The translations under genes and the position numbers were made by a program. The notes below the pieces were generated by a model. That model did no database searches. It saw nothing but the letters and a program-made list of their open reading frames with translations, and was not told the origin of the DNA. From positions 248,001 to 312,000 of the forward strand of contig NZ_JBGKAD010000002.1 in the NCBI RefSeq assembly GCF_041361345.1: a stretch of DNA of 64,000 nt, read 5' to 3'. Shown piece by piece: positions 21,299 through 63,929 of this stretch. The number at the start of each line of letters is the position of its first letter. Position 1 is the first letter of the stretch. This DNA is from Halobaculum sp. MBLA0147 (GTDB lineage: Archaea; Halobacteriota; Halobacteria; Halobacteriales; Haloferacaceae).

Positions 21299-21816
21299 TC
21301 TGTGGTCTCCCCCGACGCCCCCTCCTCGGCGTCGCGTAGCAGAGCGTACAACTCGCTCCCCACCAGTAGTAATCCGGGGACTACCACCAGCGCAACCGTC
21401 CCCGCAGTCGTCCCGGCGAACGTCACTGCCCGCCCGATCAGCGGGATGTGGAAGGAGACGACCCCGACGACCGCAGACGGCTCTACCAGTTCCGGATCGG
21501 GGTCTTCGTTCGCGTCTCCCTTTGTCCGGAACGCACGCGTCCCGTCGCGCTCGACGACTTCGATCACCCGATGTGTGACGAGGCGGCCGTCCGCCTCGCC
21601 AGACCGGAACGTGATCACGTCACCCTCGCCGATCTGGGACGGCTGGCGGTCGGCGACGATCACCACGTCCCCGGCGTCGATCGTCGGCGCCATACTGTCG
21701 GAGAGGACGACGTAGCTCTGACTCGCGCCGACGACTTGCGGGACGGCGTAGACGATGAAGGGGAGTATCGCCAGGACGAGGGCAATAAACCCGACCCGCT
21801 GTAGTGTCTCACGCAT
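21295..21816 (-). CDS. sipW: SipW-type (ER-type) signal peptidase I
   Basis: A 173-residue membrane peptidase that would cleave signal peptides of the TasA-like proteins in this cluster. One N-terminal and one C-terminal membrane segment flank the catalytic part. The Ser is in VVLSDSMAPTIDAGD (about residue 41). The base is His, in GRLVTHRVIEV, as in ER/SipW-type enzymes rather than bacterial Lys. A conserved Asp is in KGDANEDPD. A ribosome site GGAGGTGA lies about 9 bases before the ATG, and a TTATAGC box is about 30 bases upstream, so sipW has its own promoter. It overlaps the downstream gene by 4 bases. Confidence 0.9.
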   Translation of the reverse strand: MRETLQRVGFIALVLAILPFIVYAVPQVVGASQSYVVLSDSMAPTIDAGDVVIVADRQPSQIGEGDVITFRSGEADGRLVTHRVIEVVERDGTRAFRTKGDANEDPDPELVEPSAVVGVVSFHIPLIGRAVTFAGTTAGTVALVVVPGLLLVGSELYALLRDAEEGASGETTE

Positions 21817-21870
21817 CCGTTCTGCTCACCTCCGGAATCATTGCGCCTCTGCTATAACTGACGTACTGAC

Positions 21871-22758: not shown

Positions 22759-22860
22759 TGTTTCTGCTTCGTCCGGAAGACCCACCGGCGGAATCGAACT
22801 GGCGAGAAGCATGGGTGGGCCGAATATAGTTATATCAATCTGGATATCATATTTGATATT

Positions 22861-24165: not shown

Positions 24166-24272
24166 AGTCGATCGATCCCCGTGACGGGGAGTCCCACCGA
24201 CGGAGTCGAACCGTCGCCCCTCTCGGGGACACCGGCGTGGGTTACCTGGCGTGAACGCCGTGTATCATCTCG

Positions 24273-24294
24273 CGTGTACGCTCTCGCGTACACG
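24273..24294 (-). terminator. Perfect hairpin between two TasA-like genes
   Basis: CGTGTACGC (24273-24281) and GCGTACACG (24286-24294) form a perfect 9-bp stem with a TCTC loop (plus-strand reading). It lies just past the stop of the 24315 gene and before the 24165 gene, both on the minus strand, so it may end or stabilise transcript ends between them. Confidence 0.5.
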
Positions 24295-24314
24295 TGACTC
24301 GCTAGTGGCTGACC

Positions 24315-24968
24315 TCAGTCGGACACCGTCTGCGTCAACTCGAACGTCGCGGTCACCTCAACGCGATCCGTCCGGACGCGATTGCTCGCGTCCGTCGGCA
24401 GGCGGTACGTCGTCTCCACGACCACGTCGCCACCGGCCGGGAGCGCGACCCTCCCGAGTTCTTCCCCGACCGGCACGTCCGCGACGGTCGCGAACTCGTC
24501 TGCGCCGCCGACGAAGTGCGCGACTGGCGGCTCGTCGGAGTCGCGGCGGACGGCGATCCGCAACTCCAACACCGACGACAACTCCCCGGCACCGCGACCG
24601 GGGTCACCGCCCGTCTCGTCCCCGGCCTCCAGCTCGGGCTTCTCGCGGCCGTTCTCGAGGTCCCGAACGTCGTCGATACCGAACGCGAGTTCACCCGGAA
24701 TCGACCCCTCGTTGGAGACGAGGAGTTCACGCCCTCCGGTCTCCTCGGGCTCGACACTGGTCGCGTCCGGCCCGATCAGTGCCCGCTCGTCGTTCGACCC
24801 GATGTCGAGATCCAGCGTCCCCGCACGCACCGTGTTCCCGGAACTCGTCTCCGCGTCGCGGAACACCGCGTACGTCCCCGCACCGGCACCGCTCCCGGCC
24901 GCTCCGAGACCGGCCACCGCCGCGAGGACCCGCCGACGCGTGAGGGGTACCGACTCGTTTCCGACCAT
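24315..24968 (-). CDS. TasA/camelysin-like SipW-dependent protein
   Basis: A 217-residue exported protein. The signal region has LTRRRVLAAVAGLG and then GTYAVFRDAETSSGNTVRAG, typical for SipW substrates. The mature domain (TLDLDIG, GSIPGELAFGIDDV, GGDPGRGAGELSSVL, VVETTYRLPTDASNRVRTD) shares motif order with the protein at 19377. Bacterial TasA and archaeal bundling-pilus subunits have this fold and assemble by donor-strand exchange. Composition is locally normal, unlike the next two genes, so this may be the resident subunit. The ATG at 24968 (MVGNESVPLTRRR) is preferred over 24989. Confidence 0.75.
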   Translation of the reverse strand: MVGNESVPLTRRRVLAAVAGLGAAGSGAGAGTYAVFRDAETSSGNTVRAGTLDLDIGSNDERALIGPDATSVEPEETGGRELLVSNEGSIPGELAFGIDDVRDLENGREKPELEAGDETGGDPGRGAGELSSVLELRIAVRRDSDEPPVAHFVGGADEFATVADVPVGEELGRVALPAGGDVVVETTYRLPTDASNRVRTDRVEVTATFELTQTVSD

Positions 24969-49769: not shown

Positions 49770-50291
49770 TCACTCGGAGGTCACAGATTCCGTCTGGGTC
49801 TCCTGTCCGAGTCTAGTGATCTCGATCGGTTCGTCACTCTCCTCTCCACTGCCGACGGCGACGACGACGTTCGTCTCTTCCGTGTCGGGCACATCGACAT
49901 CCGTACTCGCCTCTCTCACGCCGTCGACCGCAGACCCCTCGTCGAGACTGATCGCGACGGTGTGTGTCCCGGTCGCGGAGAACACGTCGTCGTACCGGGC
50001 CACGCCGACCTCCGCGTCCGGCTCCGTCCTCGTCCCCGTCGCCGTCCCCTGTTGCGTCTGTCGCTCCGACACGAGATCGAACGTCTCGTCGAGCACCGTC
50101 CCGCCGTCCGGCCCCGTGACAGTGACAGTTCCGGCGATTCGCCGATCGGTACCGTTGACGACGTTGACCTCTTGGAACACACTCGAGACGGCCGACTCGA
50201 GGATTCCAGAACAACCGGCTGTGGCGGCGACGGTCGCAGTCGATACACCGGCGAGGAGTCGCCGTCGAGAGCAGTTCGTGTGCACACACAC
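49770..50291 (-). CDS. Tat lipoprotein, beta-rich
   Basis: A 173-residue protein. CSRRRLLAGVSTATVAATAG then C is the signal and lipobox (cysteine about 27). The mature part has strands such as FQEVNVVNGTDRRIAGTVTV and GTHTVAISLDEG with an acidic tail, a small immunoglobulin-like fold typical of haloarchaeal surface lipoproteins. The start is the GTG at 50291 or at 50285. CTATACC about 25 bases upstream supports a leaderless start. No family name is offered. Confidence 0.65.
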   Translation of the reverse strand: MCVHTNCSRRRLLAGVSTATVAATAGCSGILESAVSSVFQEVNVVNGTDRRIAGTVTVTGPDGGTVLDETFDLVSERQTQQGTATGTRTEPDAEVGVARYDDVFSATGTHTVAISLDEGSAVDGVREASTDVDVPDTEETNVVVAVGSGEESDEPIEITRLGQETQTESVTSE

Positions 50292-50555: not shown

Positions 50556-51419
50556 TCACCGACTCGAATCGGTCGCTCGTCGGTCCGTGGTGGCGCCTCC
50601 CGGTGTTACCCGGACCCGTGGTGTCACGCTCGTCCTCGCCGTCACTCGCCTGTAGACGCCGACGATTCCGAAGTACGTGACACCGATCGCGACGAAGAAC
50701 GCCGTCTTCGCCGTGCCGTCCCAGGTGAACCCGTCGACGAGCAGCGGCCAGGTGTTGCCGAGTCCGTGGAGGAGGCCGACGAAGTAGAGGTTCTCCGTCA
50801 ACTCGTACACGAGACCGAACCCGACTCCAGAGAGCGTGAGCACGAGGAGTGTCCCGACGACCGACGTCCCGCTCACGTACCCGCCCTCGACGAGTACTCG
50901 CGGAACGTGAGCGAGTCCGAACAGGGCGCCGGCGACGACGATCGCTGTCCCTCTGCTCACCCACCCGTTCGCACCGAGAACGCTCCGTACCTTGTTCTGG
51001 AGGTAGCCGCGAACCACGAACTCCTCGACGAACGCGTAGCCGAACGACGCCACGAGCCCGCCGAGCGCGACCGGCCAGAGTACGTCGAGACCCCACGCGT
51101 TACCGCTCGCGGTCGCGATACCGACGCCCACGACGTTGAGTCCGACCCAGACGGCGAGGAACGCGATGGCGCCAGGAAGTAGGAAGCGCTTGGCAAGCCC
51201 GATATCACTCGGGCTGGCGTCGTCTCTGTACAAGAACACCGCACCGATAGCTGCGAACCCGAGGAACCACACCGCCTCAACGGCGTTCCGAACCAGTTCT
51301 GGCTCCGCTGGGACGGCAGTGTCGACCCAGTGGTTGACCGCGAAGTACACTACCAGCACGAGGAGGAACCCGACTACCCCAGTGACTCGTCCGTCGATCG
51401 AAACGTGTCTCGTCGTCAT
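50556..51419 (-). CDS. CPBP (CAAX/Abi) intramembrane protease 1
   Basis: A 287-residue membrane protein with about eight hydrophobic segments. Catalytic motifs of the CPBP/Rce1 family: EEFVVRGYLQNK (EExxxR), FGLAHVPRVL (FxxxH) and LLHGLGNTWP (HxxxN-like). The family cleaves or binds prenylated or bacteriocin-type peptides. ATG at 51419; a Ser/Thr/Arg-rich C-terminal tail follows the last helix. It is 5 kb from the other four CPBP genes of this window. Confidence 0.85.
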   Translation of the reverse strand: MTTRHVSIDGRVTGVVGFLLVLVVYFAVNHWVDTAVPAEPELVRNAVEAVWFLGFAAIGAVFLYRDDASPSDIGLAKRFLLPGAIAFLAVWVGLNVVGVGIATASGNAWGLDVLWPVALGGLVASFGYAFVEEFVVRGYLQNKVRSVLGANGWVSRGTAIVVAGALFGLAHVPRVLVEGGYVSGTSVVGTLLVLTLSGVGFGLVYELTENLYFVGLLHGLGNTWPLLVDGFTWDGTAKTAFFVAIGVTYFGIVGVYRRVTARTSVTPRVRVTPGGATTDRRATDSSR

Positions 51420-51589
51420 CGTGGGTCGTCATTCGCTCCGGAGCGACGTATGAGGGGGTCGTGGCCTGTCACGACGACAGACCGAAACAAGAACTAAGTG
51501 ACTCGACACCAGCCAGGGGAATCTGCCCCCGACACGTCTCCAGACCGTCCACCACAAGTACTATGTCGCTCTCACCGGGACATCGAACT

Positions 51590-52033
51590 ATGCTGCCCTC
51601 CACCGCTCGACAAGTGTGGTCGTCCGCCACGTGGCGGTACGCCCTCACAGCCGGTCTCGCGTCGGTCCCACTCACGCTCGCTCTCAGCTGGCGAACACCC
51701 AGTGAGTCGTGGAACCTCGCGGGTGTGGCTTTCGCCGCTCTCGTCGCCGGATATTTCGCGAAACGCCGCGGCCTCGAGAGTACAGCCGTCGGCACCCGTA
51801 CCGGTGTGATCGGCGGCCTGCCCGTCCTGTCGTCGGTTCCAGATCTCTTCACGTACGTTCTCGGACTGCCTCAGCCCGCCTGGTTCACCGCGGTCGCGGG
51901 CGTGACGCTGGTTGTGTTCGTCCCCCTCTTGTTCGGATTCGCCGCGCTCGTCGGTGCGCTCGCGGGACGACTCGGCGGCTGGCTCGCAACACAGAGAGGA
52001 CACCCCCGACGACAGATCGAGGTCGGATCGTAG
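51590..52033 (+). CDS. DUF5518-like four-TM protein
   Basis: A 147-residue membrane protein: YALTAGLASVPLTLALSW, LAGVAFAALVAGYFA, GVIGGLPVLSSVPDLF and VTLVVFVPLLFGFAALVGAL then AGRLGGWLA. The Gly-rich helices fit the DUF5518 group of haloarchaeal small membrane proteins. The ATG at 51590 follows ACAAGTACTA at about 30 bases; an upstream ATG at 51563 is also possible. Function unknown. Confidence 0.65.
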   Translation: MLPSTARQVWSSATWRYALTAGLASVPLTLALSWRTPSESWNLAGVAFAALVAGYFAKRRGLESTAVGTRTGVIGGLPVLSSVPDLFTYVLGLPQPAWFTAVAGVTLVVFVPLLFGFAALVGALAGRLGGWLATQRGHPRRQIEVGS

Positions 52034-52178
52034 TCGCGGACGGCGTCGACCCGAGTTGGTGAATACTTCTGGATCGGGTCCCGAGGCACTCGGCCTACTC
52101 CGCCCGTCGAGGTCACAACTACCGTCCGTGAGAAGCTCCCCAGGGATTGAAGCACGGGCCACACCTCGCCGTAGTTCG

Positions 52179-52568
52179 ATGTCGAACGGTGTCCAGACCC
52201 TCGCGCTCCAAGCGACCGACGTGGTCGCGACCGGCGCCTTCGCCCTCCAACTCGTACTCGCTGTCGCACAACTGGCGGGGACGTGGGCGGTGTTCTCAAA
52301 AGCGGGTCACGGCGGATGGAAAGCTCTCGTCCCAGTGTACAACTTCTACGTGATGCTCCAAATCGGTGACAACGCGTGGTGGTGGCTCCTCGTGTTGTTC
52401 GTCCCCATCGTACAACTGTACGCACTGTACAAGATCCAGGCCGGTGTCGCTCGCGCGTTCGGCAGAGGGATCGGGTTCGCGTTGGGACTCGTGTTCCTCG
52501 GCTTCGTCTTCTACCCGCTGCTAGGGTTCGGCGACGCACAGTACCGCGACCCCAGTGGTGTTGCGTGA
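52179..52568 (+). CDS. DUF5684-like membrane protein
   Basis: A 129-residue protein with three or four membrane segments. The motif GTWAVFSKAGHGGWKALVPV then YNFYVMLQIGDNAWWWLLVL followed by ARAFGRGIGFALGLVFLGF is that of DUF5684/YIP1-like small proteins, where a Lys-Ala-Gly-x-x-G-W-x-x-L-I/V-P-x-Y-N element is nearly invariant. The ATG at 52179 starts MSNGVQTLALQ. Function unknown. Confidence 0.75.
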   Translation: MSNGVQTLALQATDVVATGAFALQLVLAVAQLAGTWAVFSKAGHGGWKALVPVYNFYVMLQIGDNAWWWLLVLFVPIVQLYALYKIQAGVARAFGRGIGFALGLVFLGFVFYPLLGFGDAQYRDPSGVA

Positions 52569-52762
52569 CCACGTCTCTCGGTCTCCGTCGGCGTCGTCGG
52601 CCACACCAGTGGCGGTGGCTACGGGCGATACACCCGTCGAGAGCCGTGTGCCCGCTCGAGTTCCGGTAATCGGCTACGGCCGACCCGTGTGTGACCAGTT
52701 CACTAACAGTCCCGTTTGAGCCACACGAGACTTATGACGAACGCCCCGCTGGTGACGGCTGG

Positions 52763-53764
52763 ATGTCACGTACAACGACAGGCTCGGGAGGAGCCGCCTA
52801 CGTCCTCGCGATCGTAGTCGGACTCCTCGTGAGTGCGGTCCTCGCTCCGGTCGCCTTCCAGGCGACCCAACCCGCCGACCCCGACCGCGTCATGGTGCTC
52901 TCCTACGACGGGAGGATCACCGGGACGCAGGTCGACGAGGCGGTCGACTCCCTCCGCGAGGCACGGACGAACGGGTCGATCAGAGGCGTCGTGATCGAGA
53001 TGAACAGCCCCGGCGGCGGTGTGACCGCCTCCGAACGACTGTACAAGGCGGTGAAACACACTAGCAACGAACTGCCGGTCGCCGTCGCCGTGAAGGCACA
53101 GGCGGCCTCGGGCGGCTACTACGGCTCCATCGCCGCGGACCGGATCTTCACGCAGCCGTCCGCTGTGGTCGGAAGCGTCGGCGTGCGCACGCCGAAGGCC
53201 GTCGACTTCCCGAGTTCGATCGTTCGGAGCAGCCCGGACAAAGCTGAGAACCGCGACGAGACCACGCGGCGGACCGTCGAGGAACTCCAGGGGACGTTCG
53301 TCGCGAGCGTCCTGAAGGAGCGCGGGCCGAACTCCGACCACGGCGGGACCACGATCCAGGTCGACCGGTCGGAAGTCGAGATGGCACACACTTACCTCGG
53401 ATCGCGGGCCGTGGAGAACGGCTTCGCCGACGAGCTCGGCGACACCCGCGACGCGACCGCCTGGGTCGCGGACCAGGCCGGACTCGACTCCTACGAGATT
53501 GTTCGGAAAGATACGAGCGTGTTCGGCGGGCTCTTCCTCCTCCAGACCAGCGAGGGGACACAGGTCGTCGTGAAGGACGACGGGGTGCTTCGAACACCGC
53601 AGACACAGTACTACGCCCTGTCGGTCGAACAGCTCCCGACCATCGTCGCCAGCGAGTACGACGGTGTCGGGTCTGCAACGATCGACGACAGTGAATCGGA
53701 GTCCGACGAGTCGGCCCCGTCTGCGCGTGACGGGGCCCCCGCACTCGGAGGTGTCGACGCATGA
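52763..53764 (+). CDS. S49-family membrane peptidase (SppA-like)
   Basis: A 333-residue membrane-anchored peptidase. One N-terminal helix (YVLAIVVGLLVSAVLAPV), then an SppA-type Clp/crotonase fold: VMVLSYDGRITG, GVVIEMNSPGGGVTASE (oxyanion Gly), and the catalytic Ser in KAQAASGGYYGS. A Lys general base could not be assigned with certainty. It would cleave membrane or signal peptides. The ATG at 52763 is preceded by ACTTATGA about 30 bases upstream; the 52691 start adds an unlikely leader. Its stop overlaps the next gene by ATGA, so the two are coupled. Confidence 0.8.
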   Translation: MSRTTTGSGGAAYVLAIVVGLLVSAVLAPVAFQATQPADPDRVMVLSYDGRITGTQVDEAVDSLREARTNGSIRGVVIEMNSPGGGVTASERLYKAVKHTSNELPVAVAVKAQAASGGYYGSIAADRIFTQPSAVVGSVGVRTPKAVDFPSSIVRSSPDKAENRDETTRRTVEELQGTFVASVLKERGPNSDHGGTTIQVDRSEVEMAHTYLGSRAVENGFADELGDTRDATAWVADQAGLDSYEIVRKDTSVFGGLFLLQTSEGTQVVVKDDGVLRTPQTQYYALSVEQLPTIVASEYDGVGSATIDDSESESDESAPSARDGAPALGGVDA

Positions 53765-54741
53765 GTGACAGACTCAAGGCCGCCGGTCTGACGGTGGCCA
53801 TCGTGGTCGTGGTGGTCGGCGCGGCAGCCGTCCTCCCGATGGTACAGGGTCAGTCGACCGGCACGCCCGAGCAGCCGGCGGAGTTGGACACCTCGCAGTA
53901 CGAACCCGACAACGCACTGATCGAACCCGGCCCCGAGAGCGGGCAGATCGAGATGTCCGCCGACGCGGAGCCGAAGACCATCGTCTTCGACGTGGGCCAC
54001 GAGAACGACATCGAGCGGAGTGAGATCGCACCGCTTGTTGACACGCTCGTCGCCAACGGGCACACGGTTCGGTTCTTCGACCCGCGTGCCGACCCGCGCG
54101 TCGACCTAAACACGTCGCTGTCGAAGGCGGACGCCTTCGTCACTGTGAACCCACGGTCGCGGTTCTCGGCGAGTCAGCGCCGGGGGCTCCGTAACTTCAC
54201 GGACAGCGGCGGGCGGCTGATGGTGATGATGGACCCGGCCGAGTCGACGGCCTCCTTCGGATTCTTCGGCTTCGGTGGCGGCTCGCAGTCCAGTTCGAGC
54301 GCGACGGGCGTCACCTCGGAGTACGGCGTCTCGACCGGTCCGAGCGAGTTGTTCAACATCTCGGCCGACGGGCGTCACTACTCTCGGATCGCGACGACCG
54401 GTGCCGGCGGCACGCTCGGTGAGGGTGTCGACCGCGTGGTGATGGACGACGCCGTCCCCGTCGCCGTCGGTGGCGACGCGACGGTCGCCGTCCGTACGGC
54501 CGGCGAAGTGACCATCGAGTCCAACCGCCGCAGCGGGCGCTATCCGGTCGCGGCGACGAACGGCAACGTCTCCGTGATCGGTGACGCGACGTTCCTGCAG
54601 CCGGACGACGCGTACGTCGCCGACAACGAGGTGCTGATCGGCAACGTCGCCGACTTCCTCGTCTCCGGCGAGAAGATCGACGAGAACGCACCGGTGAAAG
54701 ACTCCGACGGCGAGGGTCGTCGCGGTCCCCCGCGTCGCTGA
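53761..54741 (+). CDS. DUF4350-like membrane protein
   Basis: A 326-residue protein. One N-terminal helix (LTVAIVVVVVGAAAVLPMV), then a GATase-like alpha/beta domain (KTIVFDVGHENDIERSEIAP, NGHTVRFFDPRAD, RLMVMMDPAEST, NVSVIGDATFLQPDDAYVAD, EVLIGNVADFLVSGE). The F-D-x-G-H-x-N motif is typical of DUF4350 proteins. It overlaps the S49 peptidase gene by four bases, so they probably act together at the membrane. A basic tail (RRGPPRR) ends it. Confidence 0.75.
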   Translation: MSDRLKAAGLTVAIVVVVVGAAAVLPMVQGQSTGTPEQPAELDTSQYEPDNALIEPGPESGQIEMSADAEPKTIVFDVGHENDIERSEIAPLVDTLVANGHTVRFFDPRADPRVDLNTSLSKADAFVTVNPRSRFSASQRRGLRNFTDSGGRLMVMMDPAESTASFGFFGFGGGSQSSSSATGVTSEYGVSTGPSELFNISADGRHYSRIATTGAGGTLGEGVDRVVMDDAVPVAVGGDATVAVRTAGEVTIESNRRSGRYPVAATNGNVSVIGDATFLQPDDAYVADNEVLIGNVADFLVSGEKIDENAPVKDSDGEGRRGPPRR

Positions 54742-54886
54742 GTCGAGTCACACCTTCCCCCGACCGTTCTTTCCCCGTACAAGTACACCTCGCACGTCGA
54801 AGAGATCGAGCACGACGAAACGCGTCTCACATCCGCTGAGACGGACCACATACTTTTGTGTGGGTGAGAGGACGACCCGACAGACG

Positions 54887-55708
54887 ATGCCGCGTAACCT
54901 GTCGATCGGTCTCGTAGTCGTTCTGCTGGTCACCGTCCTCGCAGGGTGCGGCGCGCAGCCGCCGACGGTTCGGTTCGCCGAGGTCGGGGACAACGAGTCG
55001 ATCGCCGACGAGACGTCCGACGCACTCGAGTCGGTCGCACCGCCACTCCGACCGATCGTCACCGACGACGAGACAGTGTACTCCTCGCTGGAGTACTCGA
55101 CTGAGGATGGACAGACAGTGTCGCACAACGGCACGTACTACACCACCGAGAAGACGCGAGCCGGTGTCCAGACGGTCACCGTCGTGACGGTCACCGCCGA
55201 GTCCACCGCTGACTCACCAGACTACTCACTCGACACGCTCTCGCGTCGAGACGAGGCACTATTCAAACGGACACTTCGATCGGGTGAGACCCCCTCGAAC
55301 GCCTCCATCGTGTACACACCACGCCAGGTCGACGACTCCGTGATCGTCGGGTCGGACTCACCCGTCGTGATCGGCACACCGACCGAGACGTTCGTCTTCG
55401 ATGTCACCAAGACGGAGACAGAGACGCGGCCACGCTACCGCTACACTGCGACACAGATCGCCAACTCGACCGACGAGTACGTCGCCTATCTCTATCGAAA
55501 TAAACTCGTTCGACTCGACTTCGAGAACAACAGTGCTGTCAACCAGGCGATCGGGGAGGAAGCGTACTACGGGGACACCGAGGACTTCGCCGAACTGAAC
55601 CGATCACTCCCTCGCGAGCGAGCACTCGTGCACACTAGCTACTCGGGCCGGTGGCTGGTGACGTACAACGGCACAACCTACTACGCGAGGTTGTCCTTCT
55701 TCAACTAG
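54887..55708 (+). CDS. Sec-type lipoprotein, family not recognised
   Basis: A 273-residue protein. MPRNLSIGLVVVLLVTVLAG then C is a Sec-type lipoprotein signal (cysteine about residue 21). The mature part is beta-rich and Thr/Tyr-rich (QTVSHNGTYYTTEKT, TFVFDVTKTETETRPRYRY, WLVTYNGTTYYARL). The ATG at 54887 follows TACTTTTG by about 32 bases. It lies 145 bases after the DUF4350 gene in the same direction. Confidence 0.65.
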   Translation: MPRNLSIGLVVVLLVTVLAGCGAQPPTVRFAEVGDNESIADETSDALESVAPPLRPIVTDDETVYSSLEYSTEDGQTVSHNGTYYTTEKTRAGVQTVTVVTVTAESTADSPDYSLDTLSRRDEALFKRTLRSGETPSNASIVYTPRQVDDSVIVGSDSPVVIGTPTETFVFDVTKTETETRPRYRYTATQIANSTDEYVAYLYRNKLVRLDFENNSAVNQAIGEEAYYGDTEDFAELNRSLPRERALVHTSYSGRWLVTYNGTTYYARLSFFN

Positions 55709-55806
55709 GAGTCTCGCCTACTTCTGGGATCGGTGGGTTCTTCGGACTCGTTCGCTCTCGACACGCTGTCGATAGGTATACGTCGAGTACCGACGACCTG
55801 CCCACC

Positions 55807-56268
55807 GTGCCCTCCAGACGCGAGACGATCGCGAGTGTCGCTGGTGTCGTGACGCTAACTGCCGGCTGTAGCGGTGACGACGACCCGCCCGTCCGGTGTT
55901 CCAGTCGCGGGGTGGCGAGCGAGTCAGAGCACCTGCGACAGGTCGCCGTACTCCGCGGCGACGAACGGGTGGCTCTCGGGGTGGTCGTCTCGAGACAGGC
56001 CGCGCGCGACGACAGGTTCCACGCGATCCGCATCCGAGACGCAGCGGACGAACTCGTCGCCTCGATTCCACTCTTCGCCAATCGGGATATGAGCCGTCTT
56101 GAGCATAGCGACTACGGTATCCTCACCGAGGGAAGCGGGGAACTCTACGCAGTATCACTTGGACGTCCGCCGGTCCACGGCGAGTTCACGGTCGCGTTGG
56201 TCGACACCGACGGAGAACCGCTCGCTACCTCGACCGAACAGTTCAATTGCTACACCGCCACGCTGTAG
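55807..56268 (+). CDS. Small lipoprotein
   Basis: A 153-residue protein from a GTG at 55807. SRRETIASVAGVVTLTAGCS is a Tat-type signal with lipobox (cysteine about 19). The mature part has a small beta domain (QVAVLRGDERVALGVVVSRQ, GELYAVSLGRPPVHGEFTVA then LVDTDGEPLATS). GGTATACG sits 25-32 bases before the GTG, so it is leaderless. No family is recognised. It is close in size and type to the lipoprotein at 49770. Confidence 0.65.
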   Translation: MPSRRETIASVAGVVTLTAGCSGDDDPPVRCSSRGVASESEHLRQVAVLRGDERVALGVVVSRQAARDDRFHAIRIRDAADELVASIPLFANRDMSRLEHSDYGILTEGSGELYAVSLGRPPVHGEFTVALVDTDGEPLATSTEQFNCYTATL

Positions 56269-56412
56269 CCATCACGTTGGAACGGTCGGGCCGGGACGGC
56301 GAACTCGCTCGGCGGTGAACGGGGTGAGGTGCGGCGAGTGGTGTAGCCGACCGTGACCCTTCGGTACTTCCACGCGCGCCAGTCACCTCGTGGACCCAGC
56401 GTTCGACCGAGC

Positions 56413-56456
56413 TGTACGGCAGTACAACATCGGAGAGATCTCTGTACGCCCGTACA
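56413..56456. promoter_or_regulatory. Twin palindromic operator TGTAC-N4-GTACA
   Basis: Two perfect inverted repeats, TGTACGGCAGTACA (56413-56426) and TGTACGCCCGTACA (56443-56456), are 30 bases centre to centre, about three helical turns. The TATA box of the downstream leader ORF/CPBP gene begins 35 bases after the second site. They are good candidate binding sites for a dimeric regulator acting from upstream of the basal promoter. Confidence 0.65.
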
Positions 56457-56490
56457 CAGGTGTTTCGGGGCGCGAACGGTGCAGACGGCA

Positions 56491-56498
56491 CTATACCC
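56491..56498 (+). promoter_or_regulatory. TATA box of the CPBP 2 transcript
   Basis: CTATACCC lies 23-30 bases before the ATG at 56521, which places the transcript start at or near that ATG. Confidence 0.6.
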
Positions 56499-56520
56499 AC
56501 TGCTCGACACGACACTGTCG

Positions 56521-56628
56521 ATGACACGGCGCGACATCGGTCGAGAGGACGCACGAACCGACGAGATCGACCGCGGTGCGGAGGATGAGCCACACGGTGC
56601 TCTCGGGTACCGGGAGGGTGCACGATGA
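56521..56628 (+). CDS. 35-residue leader ORF coupled to CPBP protease 2
   Basis: From the ATG at 56521 the frame gives MTRRDIGREDARTDEIDRGA and then EDEPHGALGYREGAR, with a stop at 56626-56628 overlapping the ATG of the protease at 56625 (ATGA). It is hydrophilic, with no signal or membrane part. It could simply couple translation, or be a peptide processed or sensed by the protease. The TATA box spacing supports its start. Confidence 0.5.
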   Translation: MTRRDIGREDARTDEIDRGAEDEPHGALGYREGAR

Positions 56629-57389
56629 GTACCGCCTCCGATCGAGGGCTCTCGGCCGCCGTTCCGGATCGTGCGACGGCTCGGGCGGTGCTCGCGGCAC
56701 TCGGACTCGCCGTCGGCGGGCTCGTCGCGGGCATCGCGGGGGTGTTCACCTTCTCGACGATTCGGGAAGCCGTCGGGATCGCCGGCACACCGGTCGGTGA
56801 CGCCTTCGGCAGTGGGATTCAGCTCGGCTTCGGTGCACTCGCTCTCGTGTTCCTCGCGGTCGCGGACGACCCGCGACGCTACGTCGGGATTCGGTGGCCG
56901 ACACTGGAAGACGTCGGCTGGACGCTCGCGACGCCGGTCGCGATCACACTCGTCGGCTGGACCTTCCTCGCGATCCAGTCGGCACTCGGCGTCGAGACCG
57001 GTTCGCACGCGGGCTCGGAGGGTATCCTCGACGTCGGTGTCGTCTTCGCGGAGCAGCCGATCGTCTGGGTGCTGGTGCTCGGGTGGCTGTTCCTGGTCGC
57101 GGCACCGATGGAGGAACTCCTCTACCGTGGCATCGTCCAGGGACGAGTCCGACCGCACCTCGGGACCGCCGGGACGGTTCTCGTGGCCGCTGCCGCGTTC
57201 GGACTGATGCACGCACTGCCAGTGGTGTTCGGCGGTGTCGCCGAGGCGTCGCTCGCGTTCCTCCGCACCGCGATCGGCGGAGTCGTCTGGGGGTACGCCT
57301 ACGAGCGGACGCGGAACCTCGCCGTGACGGCCGTCGCGCACGCGTCTGTGTGGGTCGTGAACTACGAGGTGGTGCTCTCGCTCGTCTGA
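56625..57389 (+). CDS. CPBP (CAAX/Abi) intramembrane protease 2
   Basis: A 254-residue membrane protein with about seven helices. EELLYRGIVQGRV (EExxxR), FGLMHALPVV (FxxxH) and VAHASVWVVNY (HxxxxxxN region) are the family motifs. A short leader ORF overlaps its start by four bases, and two palindromic sites lie upstream. It probably cleaves a membrane or lipid-linked peptide. Complete; C terminus is short and hydrophobic. Confidence 0.85.
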   Translation: MSTASDRGLSAAVPDRATARAVLAALGLAVGGLVAGIAGVFTFSTIREAVGIAGTPVGDAFGSGIQLGFGALALVFLAVADDPRRYVGIRWPTLEDVGWTLATPVAITLVGWTFLAIQSALGVETGSHAGSEGILDVGVVFAEQPIVWVLVLGWLFLVAAPMEELLYRGIVQGRVRPHLGTAGTVLVAAAAFGLMHALPVVFGGVAEASLAFLRTAIGGVVWGYAYERTRNLAVTAVAHASVWVVNYEVVLSLV

Positions 57390-57490
57390 CCCGCGGACGA
57401 CGAGCGGTTTCCACGACCGCGACTCGACGGGACTTCCGTCGCGCCGTCGCCACGACGGCGCGTCCGGGACGAGACCCCGTCCAGCTTCGG

Positions 57491-58183
57491 TTAGAGCCGT
57501 TCCCAGACCGACCGGAGCGTGGCCGCCGGACCGTCGACGAACTCGCGGAGCTTGGGCACGAGATCGTACTTCACGCTGCGAGCGGCGAGAATACCGAGTC
57601 CGATGGCCAACGCCGACCCGCCGAACACGAGTGAGACGAACGCGATCGCGCCGTCGACTCCCGGCGGCACGGTGCCGAACGGGACGGGGACCAGCAGGAC
57701 ACCCGGGAGCGCGAGCGCGGTCCCGATCTTCAACGCCAACTCCGATCGACGCTTCCACGCGGAGGGGTCGCCGGCGGCCGCCAGTTCGGCCGCGGCGGCA
57801 CTCTCCACCTCCTCGCGCGTCCGGAGGTCGATCGACTCGAGCGTCCGCTCCTCGCGCTCGGTGTCGACCTCGTCGACGCGCTCGCGTGCTCGCTCGATCA
57901 CGGCCGCTCGTTCGACGCCGTGGATCTCCCGGAGTCGCTCGTGGACGACCAGCATCGCGGCGAGAGAGCGTTCCACCGTCTCCTCGTCGGTGTCCTCGAA
58001 GGCCGCCGCCAGTTCGTCGTCGGGGTAGGCGACGAGGTGGTCGAAGTCCCGGACGCCTGCAGACAGCCGCTGGCGGACGCGCTGGCGACCACGGCGCCGC
58101 TTCGCGCCGTCGACGCTCTCGAAGTCTTCGGGAACCCGCTCACGCTGCGTGTTGGTCAGTAGCGACGCCGGGTCGTCGGCCAT
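57491..58183 (-). CDS. Helical protein with C-terminal membrane pair
   Basis: A 230-residue protein. The first 150 residues are charged and helical (RRRGRQRVRQRLSAGVRDFD, VERSLAAMLVVHERLREIHG, ERARERVDEVDTEREERTLE), likely a coiled-coil cytoplasmic domain. Two membrane segments at about 150-205 (ALALPGVLLVPVPFG; IAFVSLVFGGSALAIGLGIL) precede a short tail. ATG at 58183 lies 24-31 bases after CTTTTTGT, so it is leaderless. It is downstream of the ABC exporter operon on the same strand (173-base gap). Function unknown. Confidence 0.65.
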   Translation of the reverse strand: MADDPASLLTNTQRERVPEDFESVDGAKRRRGRQRVRQRLSAGVRDFDHLVAYPDDELAAAFEDTDEETVERSLAAMLVVHERLREIHGVERAAVIERARERVDEVDTEREERTLESIDLRTREEVESAAAAELAAAGDPSAWKRRSELALKIGTALALPGVLLVPVPFGTVPPGVDGAIAFVSLVFGGSALAIGLGILAARSVKYDLVPKLREFVDGPAATLRSVWERL

Positions 58184-58356
58184 ACGCGTCGTGTGGGAGC
58201 ACGAGCACAAAAAGCCCGGAGCGGGATCACGGCACGGGCAAACGGTCGGCACCGATCGCGCGACGCCACGAGACGTGCCGGCGGCGGTCGTGTGACTCCA
58301 CGAGATGTGCCGGCGGGGAGAGTGAGGCGACGACGGCCCACGTCAGAGTGGGCGCG

Positions 58357-59013
58357 TCACCGCACCAACTGTTCCGTATCGACACGAGTGGCTGCGACGT
58401 ACGCCGCGGCGCCGAGACACGCGAGGAGTCCGCAGACGACGGCACCGACGAGCACTGCCGAGTGACTGGTCCCGACACCGACACGTCGCGGGACGGAGAC
58501 GACGAGCACCAGAACGGCGAACGAGAGTGCCGTACCCACCCGTGGTCGACGGACTCTGAGGTAGAGGAGCGTGACCAGCGCCGCCAGCGGGAGCATCGCC
58601 GCGCCGACGACCGCGACGGGAGCCACAACCTGCCAGACGGCCAGTCCCGGTGTCGTGACCCACAGTCCGGCCGCGACGATCGACGCTGCCGCCGTCCCCC
58701 ACAGCGCGACGGGAGCGGCTCTCACGACCAGCAACGTCGGGAACGAGACCGGGTAGACGAGCAGCCGGCGGTAGACGCCGGCGAGAGAGTCTTCGATCGC
58801 CGTGTACGCTCCGAGGAGGAAGACGACGGTCGTCGCGGCGAACGTCGAGACGACACCGACGTACCCCGCCACGGCGAGTGGACCACCCAGTGCCGGACGG
58901 AGCGACACGATCGGATTCTGGAGTGTCAACGACACACCGAGGAGGAGTGAGATACCGATCCCGGGCTGCCACAGTTCACCGCACTCGTTCGCGACCTGTC
59001 GGAGTACACGCAC
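58357..59013 (-). CDS. ABC-2-type exporter membrane subunit B
   Basis: A 218-residue protein with six hydrophobic segments. The cytoplasmic-loop motif YRRLLVYPVSFPTLLVVRAA is shared with the preceding gene (YHRLLVYPVSFSRLLLVKTL), so the two are paralogues. It starts with GTG at 59013, six bases after the stop of subunit A. It would form the channel with subunit A and the ATPase encoded at 59685-60566. The substrate is unknown; small membrane subunits of this size are typical of peptide or bacteriocin-type exporters. Confidence 0.75.
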   Translation of the reverse strand: MRVLRQVANECGELWQPGIGISLLLGVSLTLQNPIVSLRPALGGPLAVAGYVGVVSTFAATTVVFLLGAYTAIEDSLAGVYRRLLVYPVSFPTLLVVRAAPVALWGTAAASIVAAGLWVTTPGLAVWQVVAPVAVVGAAMLPLAALVTLLYLRVRRPRVGTALSFAVLVLVVSVPRRVGVGTSHSAVLVGAVVCGLLACLGAAAYVAATRVDTEQLVR

Positions 59014-59019
59014 TCGTGA

Positions 59020-59688
59020 TCACCCAACGACGAGTCGTTCGAGGTCGAGGCCGATCAGTGCGACGGCCGCGACCCCGTACGAGACGACGACCGCCGCGAC
59101 ACCGCCGAGCGCGAGCGTGACCGGTGACGCCGACACCGCGAGGGGTCCGAGCCGCGAGAGGACGACGCCTCCGGACACGACGGCGAACACTACGACGGTA
59201 CCGATCCGCGGGTCGTCGATCCAGAGGTACCAGAGCGTGACGAGTACCGCGACCGGGACGACGGCGACGCCGACGACGGCGACCGCCGCGAGCACCGTCA
59301 CGAGACGCAGTCTCGGCAGCGAGTAGTACGCGACGCCTCCGAGTACGAGCGCGGCGCCAGTACCACACACTGCGACGGGCAGCGTCTTGACGAGCAGGAG
59401 TCGAGAGAACGAGACGGGGTAGACGAGCAGCCGGTGGTAGACGTTCTCGGCGTCGTCCTCGACGGCCGCGTACGCACTCGACAGGAAGACGACGAACGCT
59501 GCTCCGAACGCCGGCACCGCGACGGCGTACACGGTGACGAGCCACGCTGGCCCACCGGCGGCCACCGCCCGTGTGACGACTCGATCCGGCCGCTGTACGA
59601 GGAAGACACCGACGAGTACGACTGCGAGTCCGGCACTCACACGCCAGACGTTCCGGAGTTCGACCCACAACTGCCGTCCGACGTTCAC
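59020..59688 (-). CDS. ABC-2-type exporter membrane subunit A
   Basis: A 222-residue six-helix protein paralogous to subunit B. Key segments are AAFVVFLSSAYAAVEDDAEN then VYHRLLVYPVSFS, and VAVLVTLWYLWIDDPRIGT. GTG at 59688 overlaps the ATPase stop by GTGA, so translation is coupled. ABC-2 family membership rests on the neighbours and topology. Confidence 0.75.
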   Translation of the reverse strand: MNVGRQLWVELRNVWRVSAGLAVVLVGVFLVQRPDRVVTRAVAAGGPAWLVTVYAVAVPAFGAAFVVFLSSAYAAVEDDAENVYHRLLVYPVSFSRLLLVKTLPVAVCGTGAALVLGGVAYYSLPRLRLVTVLAAVAVVGVAVVPVAVLVTLWYLWIDDPRIGTVVVFAVVSGGVVLSRLGPLAVSASPVTLALGGVAAVVVSYGVAAVALIGLDLERLVVG

Positions 59689-60566
59689 GACTGGTCCTCC
59701 GGCGTCAACGCGAAGTACAACGCTTCCAAGTCGATCTGTTCGACGTCCTGCGAGTCGACCAGGTCCCCCGACCCAGCGGGTTCGGTGTCACCGGAGCCGG
59801 CCGCCGCACCGTCGGGCCAGTACAACTCGACCCCCGGTGCGACCCGTTCGCCTGCGAGCTCGGACTGTCGATCTCGGACGACCTGTAGTGAGTCGTCGAG
59901 TCTCGTCTCGAGAACTGTCCGGCCGTCACGGACGATACCGACGCGATCACAGACGCGCTGGACGTCCGACAGTGCGTGCGAACTGAACAGGATCGACCGA
60001 TCGGACGACTCCACGAGCTGCAACACGGTCTCGCGTGACTCCGGGTCCAGGCCCGAGACGGGTTCGTCCAAGACGAGCACGTCCGGGTCCGAGAGCAACG
60101 CGTCGGCGATCGACACCTTCCGTTTCATTCCCTTCGAGAGGGTGTCGAACGGCTCGCTCGCGACGGACGGGTCGAGACGGACTCGGTCGAGACACGACTC
60201 GATCCTGGCCGGCGGGAGTTCGTGCACGTGACACGTCACGAGCAGGTTGTCTCGCACGGTCCACGACGGCTTGAGCGTCTCGCTCTCGAAGACGACACCG
60301 ACCTCTCGCAAGGCGTCGTCTCCCGGGGGTTCGCCGAGGAGGCGGACTCGGCCCTCGTCTGGCTGTCGGAGTCCGAGGATCGTCTCGATCGTCGTCGTCT
60401 TGCCCGCACCGTTGGGGCCGAGCAACCCGTACACGTCGCCCTCTCGGAGTGTGAGTGACACGTCCCGCAACACATCGACACCGTCGATCGCCTTCGAGAC
60501 GCCGGTCACCGAGACGACCGGCTCTCCCGACACTCGTCGGCCGTCGACAGTGGTGTCCGATCGCAT
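59685..60566 (-). CDS. ABC transporter ATP-binding protein
   Basis: A 293-residue ATPase of the ABC-2/NatA/CcmA type. Walker A GPNGAGKTTTIE (about 50), Q-loop region VVFESETLKPSWTVRDN, signature DTLSKGMKRKVSIA (about 140), Walker B DVLVLDEPVSGLD and H-loop SSHALSDV. A C-terminal extension of about 70 residues is typical for this subfamily. ATG at 60566; no clear TATA box. It is the first gene of a three-gene coupled operon and divergent from CPBP protease 3. Confidence 0.9.
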   Translation of the reverse strand: MRSDTTVDGRRVSGEPVVSVTGVSKAIDGVDVLRDVSLTLREGDVYGLLGPNGAGKTTTIETILGLRQPDEGRVRLLGEPPGDDALREVGVVFESETLKPSWTVRDNLLVTCHVHELPPARIESCLDRVRLDPSVASEPFDTLSKGMKRKVSIADALLSDPDVLVLDEPVSGLDPESRETVLQLVESSDRSILFSSHALSDVQRVCDRVGIVRDGRTVLETRLDDSLQVVRDRQSELAGERVAPGVELYWPDGAAAGSGDTEPAGSGDLVDSQDVEQIDLEALYFALTPEDQS

Positions 60567-60899
60567 CGTCGTGTCTGATCGTTGGCTCGTGTCCGTCGAT
60601 CTGTCTCGGTGTTCGACCTCTGCCGGTGGCTGCGCTCGCTCGCGTCGCCGCTCGGCACCCGTCTCGTGAGGGTCGACCGTCGTGGTCGACGACCACCCCT
60701 CGTCGCGAGTGCCGAGTGGTCGTCGGGTCGGCGGTACGGCCGACTGCGTAATGTACGTTGTGTGGTTCGTGACGGCGCAGTGATCGCCGTGTCGTGTTCT
60801 CGGTCGTCGACTCGGTCGCCCACCGTCCGAGACGTGGCTTCAGCCGCTGAAGCCGCTGCTTCCGATTGTTGTCCCCTCGACTCGTGTGCGTAGGTACGG
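60567..60899. promoter_or_regulatory. Divergent region between the ABC operon and CPBP 3
   Basis: 333 bases without a convincing gene. A perfect 9-bp inverted repeat GGCTTCAGC-C-GCTGAAGCC lies at 60836-60854, about 45 bases before the CPBP 3 ATG, followed by GCTGCTTCCG. It could be an operator or an RNA hairpin in the leader. GCGTAATGTACGTTG (about 60747-60761) contains a TGTAC half-site like that at 56413, but without the other half. Confidence 0.5.
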
Positions 60900-61898
60900 A
60901 TGACCCGATCGACCGAGACGACTGCGGAACGGGAGACGACAGAACCGAGCACCACCACTGGTGAGACGAGCGACGACGGGGTGACCGGAGTCGTCGGCAC
61001 ACTCCTGTGGAACGATACGGAGTCACGTCCGCGTGCACCGGTTCGAGTCCTCGGGGTGTACGTGGCCTCGTTCGTCGGCATATTCCTCCTCCCCGGTCTC
61101 CTGCTGACCGGGATCTCACTCCCTCCCTCGGTGAACGGTGCCGCGACCAACCTCGTCGCTGCCGGGGTCGCGCTGGCTATCGTCGTCGTCTCTGCGAAGT
61201 ACGTCGACGGGCGAACGCTGGCGGCGTACGGACTGGCTCGGTCGCCGGCGACGGTTCGAGACTTCCTCGCCGGAGGGCTCGTCGGCACACTCGGGGCGGC
61301 GACGACACTGTCGGTGAGCCTCGTCGCCGGCTGGGCGACGGTCGCCGCGGTGTTTTCGCCGGGGACCGGCTCGACCACGTCGCCGTTCGGTCTCGCGATG
61401 CTCGGATACGTCTGCCAGTGGCTGTTCGTCGCGTTCTGGGAGGAGCTGATCTTCCGTGGGCTGATCACGACGTACACCGTCGAGGGACTCCGGGACCGTC
61501 TGTCGGATCGGCGGGCACTCGTCGGAGGCGTCGTCGTGGCAGCGGTGATCTTCAGTGCCGGTCACTTCCCGCAGTCGGCGGCAGCGTTCCTCCACAGGGC
61601 TATCTTGGGTGCCGTCCTCGGAGCCGCGTACGTCTGGACGGGGTCACTGGCGCTCCCAGTCGGACTCCACTTCGCGGTGAACTTCACACAGAACAACGTC
61701 TTCGGCCAAGCGGCCGCCGCCGACGGAGCGTCGGTGCTCCCGATGGTGATCCGCCCGACGTTCACCGGGCCAGAGTGGGCGGTGGGGCTGTACGGCGTGG
61801 TCAACGTCGCCGGCGGTCTCCTCCTGCTCGTCGCCGTCGCCGGGTACGTGGTCGTCGTCCACGAGAGTCTCGGTGACCGGCTCCCGTCGACTCTCTGA
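60900..61898 (+). CDS. CPBP (CAAX/Abi) intramembrane protease 3
   Basis: A 332-residue membrane protein with a 35-residue acidic Thr-rich N terminus and about eight helices. Motifs: AFWEELIFRGLITTY (EExxxR), FSAGHFPQSAA (FxxxH-type), VGLHFAVNFTQNN (HxxxN). It is divergent from the ABC exporter operon across a 333-base regulatory gap. Prenyl-protease or peptide-processing activity is inferred from the family. Confidence 0.85.
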   Translation: MTRSTETTAERETTEPSTTTGETSDDGVTGVVGTLLWNDTESRPRAPVRVLGVYVASFVGIFLLPGLLLTGISLPPSVNGAATNLVAAGVALAIVVVSAKYVDGRTLAAYGLARSPATVRDFLAGGLVGTLGAATTLSVSLVAGWATVAAVFSPGTGSTTSPFGLAMLGYVCQWLFVAFWEELIFRGLITTYTVEGLRDRLSDRRALVGGVVVAAVIFSAGHFPQSAAAFLHRAILGAVLGAAYVWTGSLALPVGLHFAVNFTQNNVFGQAAAADGASVLPMVIRPTFTGPEWAVGLYGVVNVAGGLLLLVAVAGYVVVVHESLGDRLPSTL

Positions 61899-61957
61899 TA
61901 CCTCGACCGGACCGTTCGACGGCCGACAGCGACGACACGACACCTCCGCGACGAGCG

Positions 61958-62806
61958 TCAGTCGTCGGCCGTCGCCGGTGCCCGTCCGACGTCGGGATCG
62001 GGCGACGAGTCGGCGAGTCGTTCCCACCCGTCGACGGCCACGATCACGACCACAACTACCACCGCCGCGACCGGCGGTGCGAACTCGGCGAGGCGTTCGA
62101 CGCCGCCAGGAGCCGTGTCTGCCGGGACGATCAGTGGGCCCCAGTTGTGTGCGGCGTGCATGACGAGTGCCAACGCGAGACCGCCGCTGGTCTTGTTGTA
62201 GATCCACGCGAGGAGCACGGAGAACGCGACGATCTCGACGAGGTAGATCGTGAAGCCCTCCACGCTCGACAGGTACCGCTGGAAGTCGAACACGGCGAAG
62301 AACGTGGAGTGCCAGAGCACCCACGCGAGACCGGTGACGACGGCGGCCGTGCCGGCAGCGTACTCCCGCTGGAGTCGCGGCTGCATGAAGCCACGCCACC
62401 CGAACTCCTCGAGTCCGCCCGCCAACAACAGAACGACCAGGAAACTCACGACGAAAGAGACGGGGGATACGTTGAGCAGTTTCACGTCGACTCCACTGGC
62501 GACGTAGACGACGGCACCTGCAGAGTTGAACAGGATCGGCACCGTGAGCGCCACGAGGTAGTACCGTGGTGCGTGCCGGAGTCGTCTCACCTGTCCCAGC
62601 AGGTCACGGACACTGGCGTCCGACAGTCCGGCCGTCACCAAGGCCCCGACGAGTGGCCCCCACGCACGAACCACGATGGCGAGCGTCGGGGGGGAGCGTC
62701 CGTAGAGACTGTACGCGATGGCATCGGCGCCGAGCGACCAACCGAACGTGACGAGCAGAAACGTCACGATCGGGTGACGTTTCACGGCGTCAGTGATCGT
62801 TGACAT
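61958..62806 (-). CDS. CPBP (CAAX/Abi) intramembrane protease 4
   Basis: A 282-residue membrane protein. Motifs: GGLEEFGWRGFMQPRLQ (EExxxR with the Trp-Arg-Gly typical of one CPBP subgroup), VLWHSTFFAV (WHxxF) and VMHAAHNWGP (HxxxN). This GWRG subgroup differs from proteases 2, 3 and 5. Start at 62806 (MSTITDAVKRHP); a further ATG at 62839 is possible. It is convergent with CPBP 3 and divergent from CPBP 5. Confidence 0.85.
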   Translation of the reverse strand: MSTITDAVKRHPIVTFLLVTFGWSLGADAIAYSLYGRSPPTLAIVVRAWGPLVGALVTAGLSDASVRDLLGQVRRLRHAPRYYLVALTVPILFNSAGAVVYVASGVDVKLLNVSPVSFVVSFLVVLLLAGGLEEFGWRGFMQPRLQREYAAGTAAVVTGLAWVLWHSTFFAVFDFQRYLSSVEGFTIYLVEIVAFSVLLAWIYNKTSGGLALALVMHAAHNWGPLIVPADTAPGGVERLAEFAPPVAAVVVVVVIVAVDGWERLADSSPDPDVGRAPATADD

Positions 62807-62880
62807 CGTTGTGACTCGTCGTAGATCACCGACGGGCATAGTACGACATCGGTGTCTGTGGGCCCGCCACCTCGGAGGAA

Positions 62881-62977
62881 GATTTATTACTCTCCTCGGA
62901 GTTCCGCACAGTCTCGACGAGTGTAACCCGACCGAACCTTCATGCCGTGTGGTAGAGAGAGGGTGAACGATGAGTGA
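62881..62977 (+). promoter_or_regulatory. Promoter and short leader ORF of CPBP 5
   Basis: GATTTATTAC (62881-62890) is the strongest TATA-like box nearby and predicts a start near 62910, leaving about 60 bases before the ATG at 62970. Within that leader an ATG at 62942 gives MPCGRERVNDE with a stop at 62975-62977, overlapping the protease start by eight bases. The leader ORF may couple or dampen translation; it may also be chance. Confidence 0.4.
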
Positions 62978-63929
62978 GTCGAGTCCACTCGACGGGATTC
63001 TCAGAGGGAGCGACGACACGCGCCTCCGGGCGACGTGGCGGGTCGTCGCCGCGACGGTCGCTTTCCTCGCGGTGTTCGTCCCACTGGTCGTCGTCGTTCG
63101 AGCAGCTCCGGTCCCCAAGCTGATCAGGAACGCACACGTGATCCTCCCGGCGGCTGCCGGCACTGCCGCGGTCGTCGTCGCCGCGAAGCGGCTCGAAGGC
63201 AGATCTGTCGCTGCCCAGGGGTTCTCGTTCGACCGCCAGTGGTGGGTCGACTTCGTCGGTGGGGTCGGTCTCGGCGTCCTCGCACAGTGTGTCATCCACG
63301 GACTGTGGGTCGCGACGGGAGCAGCCACCGTCGTCGAGACACTCTCCACGGGTGTCGTCTCTGGCGCCGCAGTCGTGGTCCCAGTCGTCGGGGCAGCGAT
63401 CGGGTACCTCGGTATCGGTCTCTGGGAGGAGGCGCTGTACCGCGGTGTGCTCGTCCGAAACGGTGTCGACGGACTCGTCGCGCGTGGGCTCACCCCCCGA
63501 ACGGCAGTGCTCGGTGTCGTCGTCGGCGGTGCCGTGCTCTTCGGCGTCCCGCACGTCTTCGTCCCGGCGGCGGGTGCCTCGGCGACCTTCGCGGCGGTCC
63601 AAGGTGTCGTCGCGGTCGTCTACTACACGGCCGCGTACGTGCTGACGGAACAGCTCGCCTTGCCCGTGGGGCTCCACTTCTCGATGAACTTCATGACCGG
63701 CGCCGTGTTCCCGGCCGCAGACAGTGGCGTGCCAGCACTCGTACGCTTCGATCGAAGCTTCACCGGTGATCCGTCCGTCGTCGGCGTAATGGTAGTCGCG
63801 ACGGTGCTGCTCACGCTCGCTGTCGCCGCGTGGGTCCGGCTCACCCGAGGCGAGGTCTCGGTTCGCGAGTGTTTCGGAACCGACGCTCCACCGACGGGCA
63901 CGGCCGTTCGAGGTGATACCGACGACTGA
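62970..63929 (+). CDS. CPBP (CAAX/Abi) intramembrane protease 5
   Basis: A 319-residue membrane protein with about eight helices. Motifs: LWEEALYRGVLVRNG (EExxxR), FGVPHVFVPAA (FxxxH) and VGLHFSMNFMTGA (HxxxN). It resembles protease 3 in length and C-terminal motif spacing, so the two may be duplicates. ATG at 62970 with a basal promoter at 62881. Its role in the cluster is unknown. Confidence 0.85.
   Translation: MSESSPLDGILRGSDDTRLRATWRVVAATVAFLAVFVPLVVVVRAAPVPKLIRNAHVILPAAAGTAAVVVAAKRLEGRSVAAQGFSFDRQWWVDFVGGVGLGVLAQCVIHGLWVATGAATVVETLSTGVVSGAAVVVPVVGAAIGYLGIGLWEEALYRGVLVRNGVDGLVARGLTPRTAVLGVVVGGAVLFGVPHVFVPAAGASATFAAVQGVVAVVYYTAAYVLTEQLALPVGLHFSMNFMTGAVFPAADSGVPALVRFDRSFTGDPSVVGVMVVATVLLTLAVAAWVRLTRGEVSVRECFGTDAPPTGTAVRGDTDD

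Follow-up and report, generated by a model that had tools for sequence, protein, structure and literature searches.

Why are five genes of the CPBP family of intramembrane proteases gathered within 13.4 kb of haloarchaeal DNA, and do they act together with the exporter genes that lie among them? The window analyzed here is a stretch of 64,000 nucleotides from Halobaculum sp. MBLA0147 (G000:C2:248001-312000), located within a 451-kb contig of this haloarchaeal genome. A preliminary description of its positions 50556-63929 had read the five CPBP genes, all with intact motifs, and an ATP-binding cassette (ABC) exporter as one functional unit, plausibly a bacteriocin-, halocin- or pheromone-like system. 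Our comparisons point to a different answer, to which we assign about an even chance: the region would be an accreted haloarchaeal island of CPBP genes from separate lineages, whose core is a mobile regulatory pair formed by the second CPBP gene (c2) and a gene that we named ASLLT (a family name given in this analysis), with the ABC trio as a local neighbor. The five genes, all of which match the CPBP/Rce1-like profile PF02517, are as follows:

c1, 50556-51419, minus strand: CPBP protein of 287 amino acids (PF02517, 53 bits)
c2, 56625-57389, plus strand: CPBP-family protein of 254 amino acids, HxxxW subfamily (PF02517, 59 bits)
c3, 60900-61898, plus strand: CPBP protein of 332 amino acids with canonical motifs (PF02517, 63 bits)
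c4, 61958-62806, minus strand: CPBP protein of 282 amino acids with canonical motifs, MmRce1-like (PF02517, 61 bits)
c5, 62970-63929, plus strand: CPBP protein of 319 amino acids with canonical motifs (PF02517, 36 bits)

The presence of five CPBP genes was borne out, since all exceed the PF02517 gathering score (35.6-62.9 bits versus a cut-off of 22.4), and so was the tight packing of four of them, with c2-c5 occupying 7.3 kb around the ABC ATPase and two small permeases. This clustering is not due to chance. When the 17 PF02517 genes of the 4.29-Mb genome were placed at random, five fell within 13 kb in 0 of 100,000 trials, and when only the ten genes of the 451-kb contig were considered, p was ~8e-4. 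Recent tandem duplication was ruled out as the origin of the cluster by the low pairwise identity of c1-c5 (at most ~35% across any long stretch) and by their separate positions, each protein being placed in a different part of the CPBP tree (a FastTree phylogeny with several long branches). The description of all five motif sets as intact held for EExxxR and F/WxxxH, which are present in 5/5 proteins, and for HxxxN in c1, c3, c4 and c5, but not for c2, which has HASVW at that position. Judged from their full motif set, c3-c5 are probably active glutamic intramembrane proteases. Among them, c4 matches the sequence of MmRce1 from Methanococcus maripaludis (PDB 4cad) with an E value of 6e-9 and also gave a match to NF041656 that fell below the cut-off. 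The first gene, c1, is probably unrelated to the c2-c5 module because its relatives lie outside the c2/ASLLT islands: they were found on the same contig (C2:52679, 67% identity) and in genomes G041 (60%) and G009 (52%), and none adjoins c2 or ASLLT.

The altered motif of c2 marks a whole subfamily. c2 carries EELLYR and FGLMH together with HASVW. The clade to which it belongs comprises 27 rows of the alignment (Shimodaira-Hasegawa-like support 98), and HxxxW is found in 27/27 of them; among the 100 CPBP proteins outside the clade, it occurs in none, with asparagine in 82 and aspartate in 5. In Rce1-type enzymes, the histidine and asparagine of HxxxN make the oxyanion hole (PMC11980579). It is this asparagine that is replaced in c2, which otherwise retains the catalytic residues, namely both glutamates, the arginine and both histidines. 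An AlphaFold2 model of c2, built from an alignment from which three rows from plasmid records were left out, reached a predicted local distance difference test (pLDDT) score of 85 and a predicted template modeling (pTM) score of 0.83. The nearest folds were SpdC (Z 15.2 over 208 residues) and then MmRce1 (Z 10.8), values that helical bundles inflate, and the Foldseek E values for the model were weak (0.03 and 0.14). By profile and modeled fold, c2 belongs to the CPBP family, but with HASVW in place of HxxxN it may not be a canonical protease. c1-c5 share PF02517 with MmRce1, from which the c2-type proteins differ by a tryptophan at the oxyanion-hole asparagine; no CAAX substrate is known for c1-c5.

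Between c2 and the permeases lies a gene that had been overlooked in the preliminary description:

ASLLT, 57491-58183, minus strand: unannotated protein of 230 amino acids, with a basic helical N-domain and a C-terminal transmembrane (TM) hairpin

The ASLLT protein starts MADDPASLLTNTQRERV. In its structure model, the N-terminal part is all-helical, with a pLDDT of ~90 at residues 30-100, and two TM segments are located C-terminally. No match to ASLLT was found among Pfam, NCBIfam, PADLOC or PDB sequences, or by Foldseek with the modest model, and FliG_C and Mediator matches with E values of 0.006-0.6 were taken as chance. ASLLT genes are present in 26/391 Halobacteria genomes, representing 16 of 86 genera, and none was confirmed in viral contigs. 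A second ASLLT paralogue (L135:7082-10127 and L134) adjoins, in the window's own genome, an ABC ATPase and a permease near an aconitase-like gene; G035 is without those ABC genes.

Overall, a c2-type CPBP gene was found beside ASLLT at 17 loci and an ABC-2 exporter at 11 others. Of 33 distinct ASLLT copies placed on a tree, 15 and the window copy have a CPBP neighbor and 11 a gene for an ABC ATPase or permease; a PAP2-like gene (a label given by inspection only) adjoins 2 others, and 4 have neither. One further CPBP-linked copy, on a Haloarcula halophila plasmid (L177:9329-10340), is split over two reading frames beside an intact CPBP gene and was not among the 33. A CPBP gene directly adjoins ASLLT at 14/31 mapped loci, compared with 8/313 control genes from the same loci (p 2e-11), and an ABC gene does so at 10/31 loci compared with 10/313 controls (p 8e-7), both tests assuming independent loci, which related genomes are not. 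In most cases, ASLLT and its partner are divergently transcribed. One state change suffices to separate the CPBP-linked from the ABC-linked copies on the ASLLT tree. Although the window ASLLT adjoins both c2 and the ABC trio, its kin on the tree point to c2, as it falls within a CPBP-only set of seven (support 100/99) with the copy of the Haloarcula GH36 plasmid as its nearest relative (65% identity). Across 16 pairs, the pairwise distances of c2 and ASLLT are correlated (Mantel r 0.61, 0/10,000 permutations), while neither follows the host family (r 0.04 and 0.07), which suggests that c2 and ASLLT were transferred jointly by horizontal transfer. These sequence comparisons show c2-type CPBPs as one clade with HxxxW and ASLLT as a family of its own; their genes are neighbors in many genomes and are inherited and transferred together.

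The exporter genes beside ASLLT were examined in the same manner:

ABC ATPase, 59685-60566, minus strand: 293 amino acids, first gene of the three-gene exporter (PF00005, 109 bits)
Permease-like membrane protein 1, 59020-59688, minus strand: 222 amino acids, 4-base overlap with the ATPase gene (ABC-2 profile PF12698, 23.5 bits, under the cut-off of 31.6)
Permease-like membrane protein 2, 58357-59013, minus strand: 218 amino acids, paralogue of permease 1 (43% identical), no Pfam match

The ATPase carries Walker A (GPNGAGKT), signature (LSKGM) and Walker B (VLVLDE) motifs. Full relatives of the permeases were found in 1/119 genomes of the same family (G035, of the same genus), and a weak relative in one more of the 391 class genomes (G200); among 84,980 species genomes, the single match was again the G035 contig, and permease 1 has an orthologue in G035 only. 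No CPBP gene was found in the 20 kb read around the trio's relatives at G035 and G200, and ABC ATPases are not enriched near CPBP genes at the mapped loci (3/165 near genes versus 18/437 farther genes). A conserved CPBP-ABC operon was rejected on the basis of this near-uniqueness, of relatives that lack CPBP genes and of the missing enrichment. Hence, of the functional unit proposed earlier, the clustering of CPBP genes is borne out and, as other haloarchaea also show it, is no accident of a single genome, whereas the link to the ABC operon did not survive a co-occurrence check, with one full relative of the trio and no CPBP gene nearby. The trio would rather be a separate exporter that neighbors ASLLT by happenstance. 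A CPBP-ABC theme persists indirectly, as the ASLLT family pairs with a CPBP or with an ABC-2 exporter in separate clades. Anti-phage defense was also considered and rejected, as a PADLOC scan gave generic ATPase-domain matches to the ABC ATPase only and no specific defense-system match.

In bacterial bacteriocin loci (e.g. Skf, plantaricin), CPBP genes and ABC exporters neighbor each other, as they do here. A bacteriocin-like system would have the CPBP proteins process a peptide or confer self-immunity, a CPBP role mentioned in PMC12214887, with the ABC trio exporting the peptide. The best NCBIfam match of the ATPase, a lantibiotic-protection ATPase model scoring far under its cut-off, is in line with such a system, and so are a CPBP-permease-ATPase-CPBP run found in G063 and the alternation of CPBP and ABC partners beside ASLLT. 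However, the trio is almost unique and without a CPBP gene in its relatives, ATPases are not enriched near CPBP genes, and, unlike the bacterial loci, the window yielded no peptide gene and shows no conserved association with the ABC genes. The suggested search for small secreted open reading frames (ORFs) with conserved leaders was run on 739 intergenic small ORFs from 19 c2/ASLLT-related loci, which were compared between genomes; only low-complexity or repeat-like matches were obtained, and no small ORF was common to the loci. The literature on halocins likewise yielded nothing connecting CPBP proteins with halocins. No positive evidence for a bacteriocin, halocin or pheromone system was therefore obtained, and we regard such a system as improbable.

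CPBP genes are also clustered beyond this genome. Across 18 further genomes of the class, all but one from the window's family (the genome set being a sample), 33/170 CPBP genes have another CPBP gene within 10 kb, compared with 8.7 expected; G033 and G037 had been picked for known clusters, and excluding both leaves 26/149 versus ~7.6. Genes in the fetched loci were called by a simple codon-usage script and checked by profile searches. Such common proximity would also be expected if independent housekeeping or stress proteases had been shuffled together on a plasmid-like replicon with no joint function, the c2-ASLLT pair being merely a conserved operon-like neighbor. The five separate lineages agree with shuffling, as do their mixed orientations, the patchy distribution of CPBP genes (2 to 35 per genome in the family) and islands of quite different gene content, for example the dense arrays of G087 (nine CPBP genes in ~13 kb; L069, G087:C3:1-20000) and G063 (eight in 24 kb; L070-L071, G063:C11), which are without the ABC trio or ASLLT. 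On the other hand, the c2-ASLLT pairing lies far above controls, and the same subtypes recur together. The 18-kb island of G033 combines c2, c4 and c5 types, with relatives of c4 (two), c5, DUF5518, DUF5684, ASLLT and c2, and a c4 relative stands beside c2 and ASLLT; the c5 relative of this island is 37% identical to c5, and another in G035 is 62% identical. In G047, c2- and c4-type CPBP genes adjoin ASLLT, and in G037 a c2 relative is accompanied by two c3-like genes. The nearest relatives of c3 (57-59%) are located on two Haloarcula plasmids, at most 4 kb from ASLLT and c2 relatives, in the order c3, DUF7521, winged helix-turn-helix (wHTH), glycosyltransferase, ASLLT, c2. Shuffling with no joint function is in our view unlikely, though it deserves some weight. 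Two small membrane proteins of the window have counterparts in these islands:

DUF5518 membrane protein, 51590-52033, plus strand: PF17647, with relatives on the Haloarcula GH36 plasmid and in two c2 islands (G033, G037)
DUF5684 membrane protein, 52179-52568, plus strand: PF18936, with a 50% relative directly adjoining ASLLT in G033

How might a c2-ASLLT regulatory pair work? ASLLT could be a membrane-anchored cytosolic adaptor or regulator, with an activity controlled by the membrane protein it is paired with. For the window's clade, this partner would be a CPBP protein with an altered active site that cuts ASLLT or a client; alternatively, the c2-type CPBP may be more SpdC-like and serve as a scaffold that binds ASLLT via TM helices. 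An ABC-2 exporter would take the partner position in the sister ASLLT clade. SpdC (LyrA) of S. aureus was reported to modulate SagB via TM contacts, without proteolysis (PMC12214887), and the SpdC-SagB complex (PDB 6u0o) resembles c2-ASLLT in that a CPBP-fold membrane protein is combined with a membrane-anchored partner. We draw this likeness as an analogy, with no claim of membership: SpdC, the solved structure whose fold comes nearest to the c2 model, is a catalytically inactive CPBP scaffold, whereas c2 retains EExxxR and FxxxH, and SagB is an extracytoplasmic glucosaminidase, whereas ASLLT is helical and predicted to be cytosolic, with no sequence relation found between them. A more specific proposal, which we hold tentatively and lean against, is that of an undescribed haloarchaeal two-component membrane module, in which a CPBP protein with an invariant tryptophan in place of the asparagine would serve as an SpdC-like pseudoprotease scaffold or regulator of ASLLT as its dedicated effector family anchored in the membrane, with the sister clade using ABC-2 exporters. 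If true, two unrelated membrane machines would plug into one regulator. Haloarchaeal CPBP proteins have hardly any known function, and a partner gene combined with a subfamily-specific active-site change would provide a two-gene handle on the function of a CPBP subfamily; the pair also bears on whether archaeal CPBP proteins work as scaffolds instead of proteases.

Several observations weigh against a regulatory c2-ASLLT pair as the core of the island. In the stretches read, 10/27 HxxxW proteins are without an adjoining ASLLT gene (one of them at a contig end), and in the window the two genes are convergent, unlike in most relatives. The window ASLLT shares its strand with the ABC trio and follows it at a distance of 173 bases downstream, an arrangement with which a role for the trio would be compatible. 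Since the glutamate pair and the arginine of EExxxR are retained, along with the histidine of FxxxH, c2 may still be an active hydrolase. Finally, the whole ASLLT model is moderate (pLDDT 72, pTM 0.44) and has no fold match, so the term adaptor is inferred from topology and neighbors.

A further possibility concerns the CPBP proteins with canonical motifs. Some of c3-c5 could act in sorting or in the processing of lipoproteins, and in this be comparable to myxosortase, a CPBP protein that sorts surface proteins (PMC11980579), in a group without known lipoprotein signal peptidases and with archaeal lipoprotein biogenesis that proceeds without bacterial homologues (PMC12186497). The myxosortases MrtX and MrtJ (NF040593, NF033192) likewise belong to the CPBP superfamily and occupy a small two-gene neighborhood of enzyme and dedicated partner, and three predicted lipobox proteins are encoded near the CPBP genes of the window (49770-50285, 54887-55708 and 55807-56268), two of them with a twin-arginine translocation (Tat)-like RR leader. 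However, lipoproteins are common in haloarchaea. All NCBIfam myxosortase models scored far under their cut-offs (15.8-29 bits for the myxosortase/JDVT-CTERM models NF040593 and NF033192, versus curated cut-offs of 75-180). Unlike the partners in myxosortase systems, ASLLT is by inspection no C-terminal sorting-tag protein, and no such tag was found, although no systematic search for tags was made. A sorting or lipoprotein-processing role thus appears quite improbable.

Other gene combinations were noted around CPBP genes. A wHTH gene and a small DUF7521 membrane protein recur by c3- and c4-type CPBP genes (L057, L058, L059, L096, L097, L112, L113, L115, L145 and L146); 8/9 members of this wHTH family lie at most two genes from a CPBP gene, to which the two Haloarcula plasmids are added, and none is beside c3 in the window. 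A conserved gene run that two genomes have in common (L070:10624-14275 and L074:7005-10698) joins a small membrane protein and a large serine-hydrolase-like protein (recognized by eye) to a CPBP protein of the EEPGWR type. Within the window, a gene for an S49/SppA-like peptidase overlaps a DUF4350/GldG-like gene by 4 bases at 52763-54741, adjoining the CPBP island. At 21295-24968, a signal-peptidase-like gene is followed by repeated related proteins of secreted appearance, coinciding with a local dip in G+C content (52%), and similar genes are located at C2:347-356 kb.

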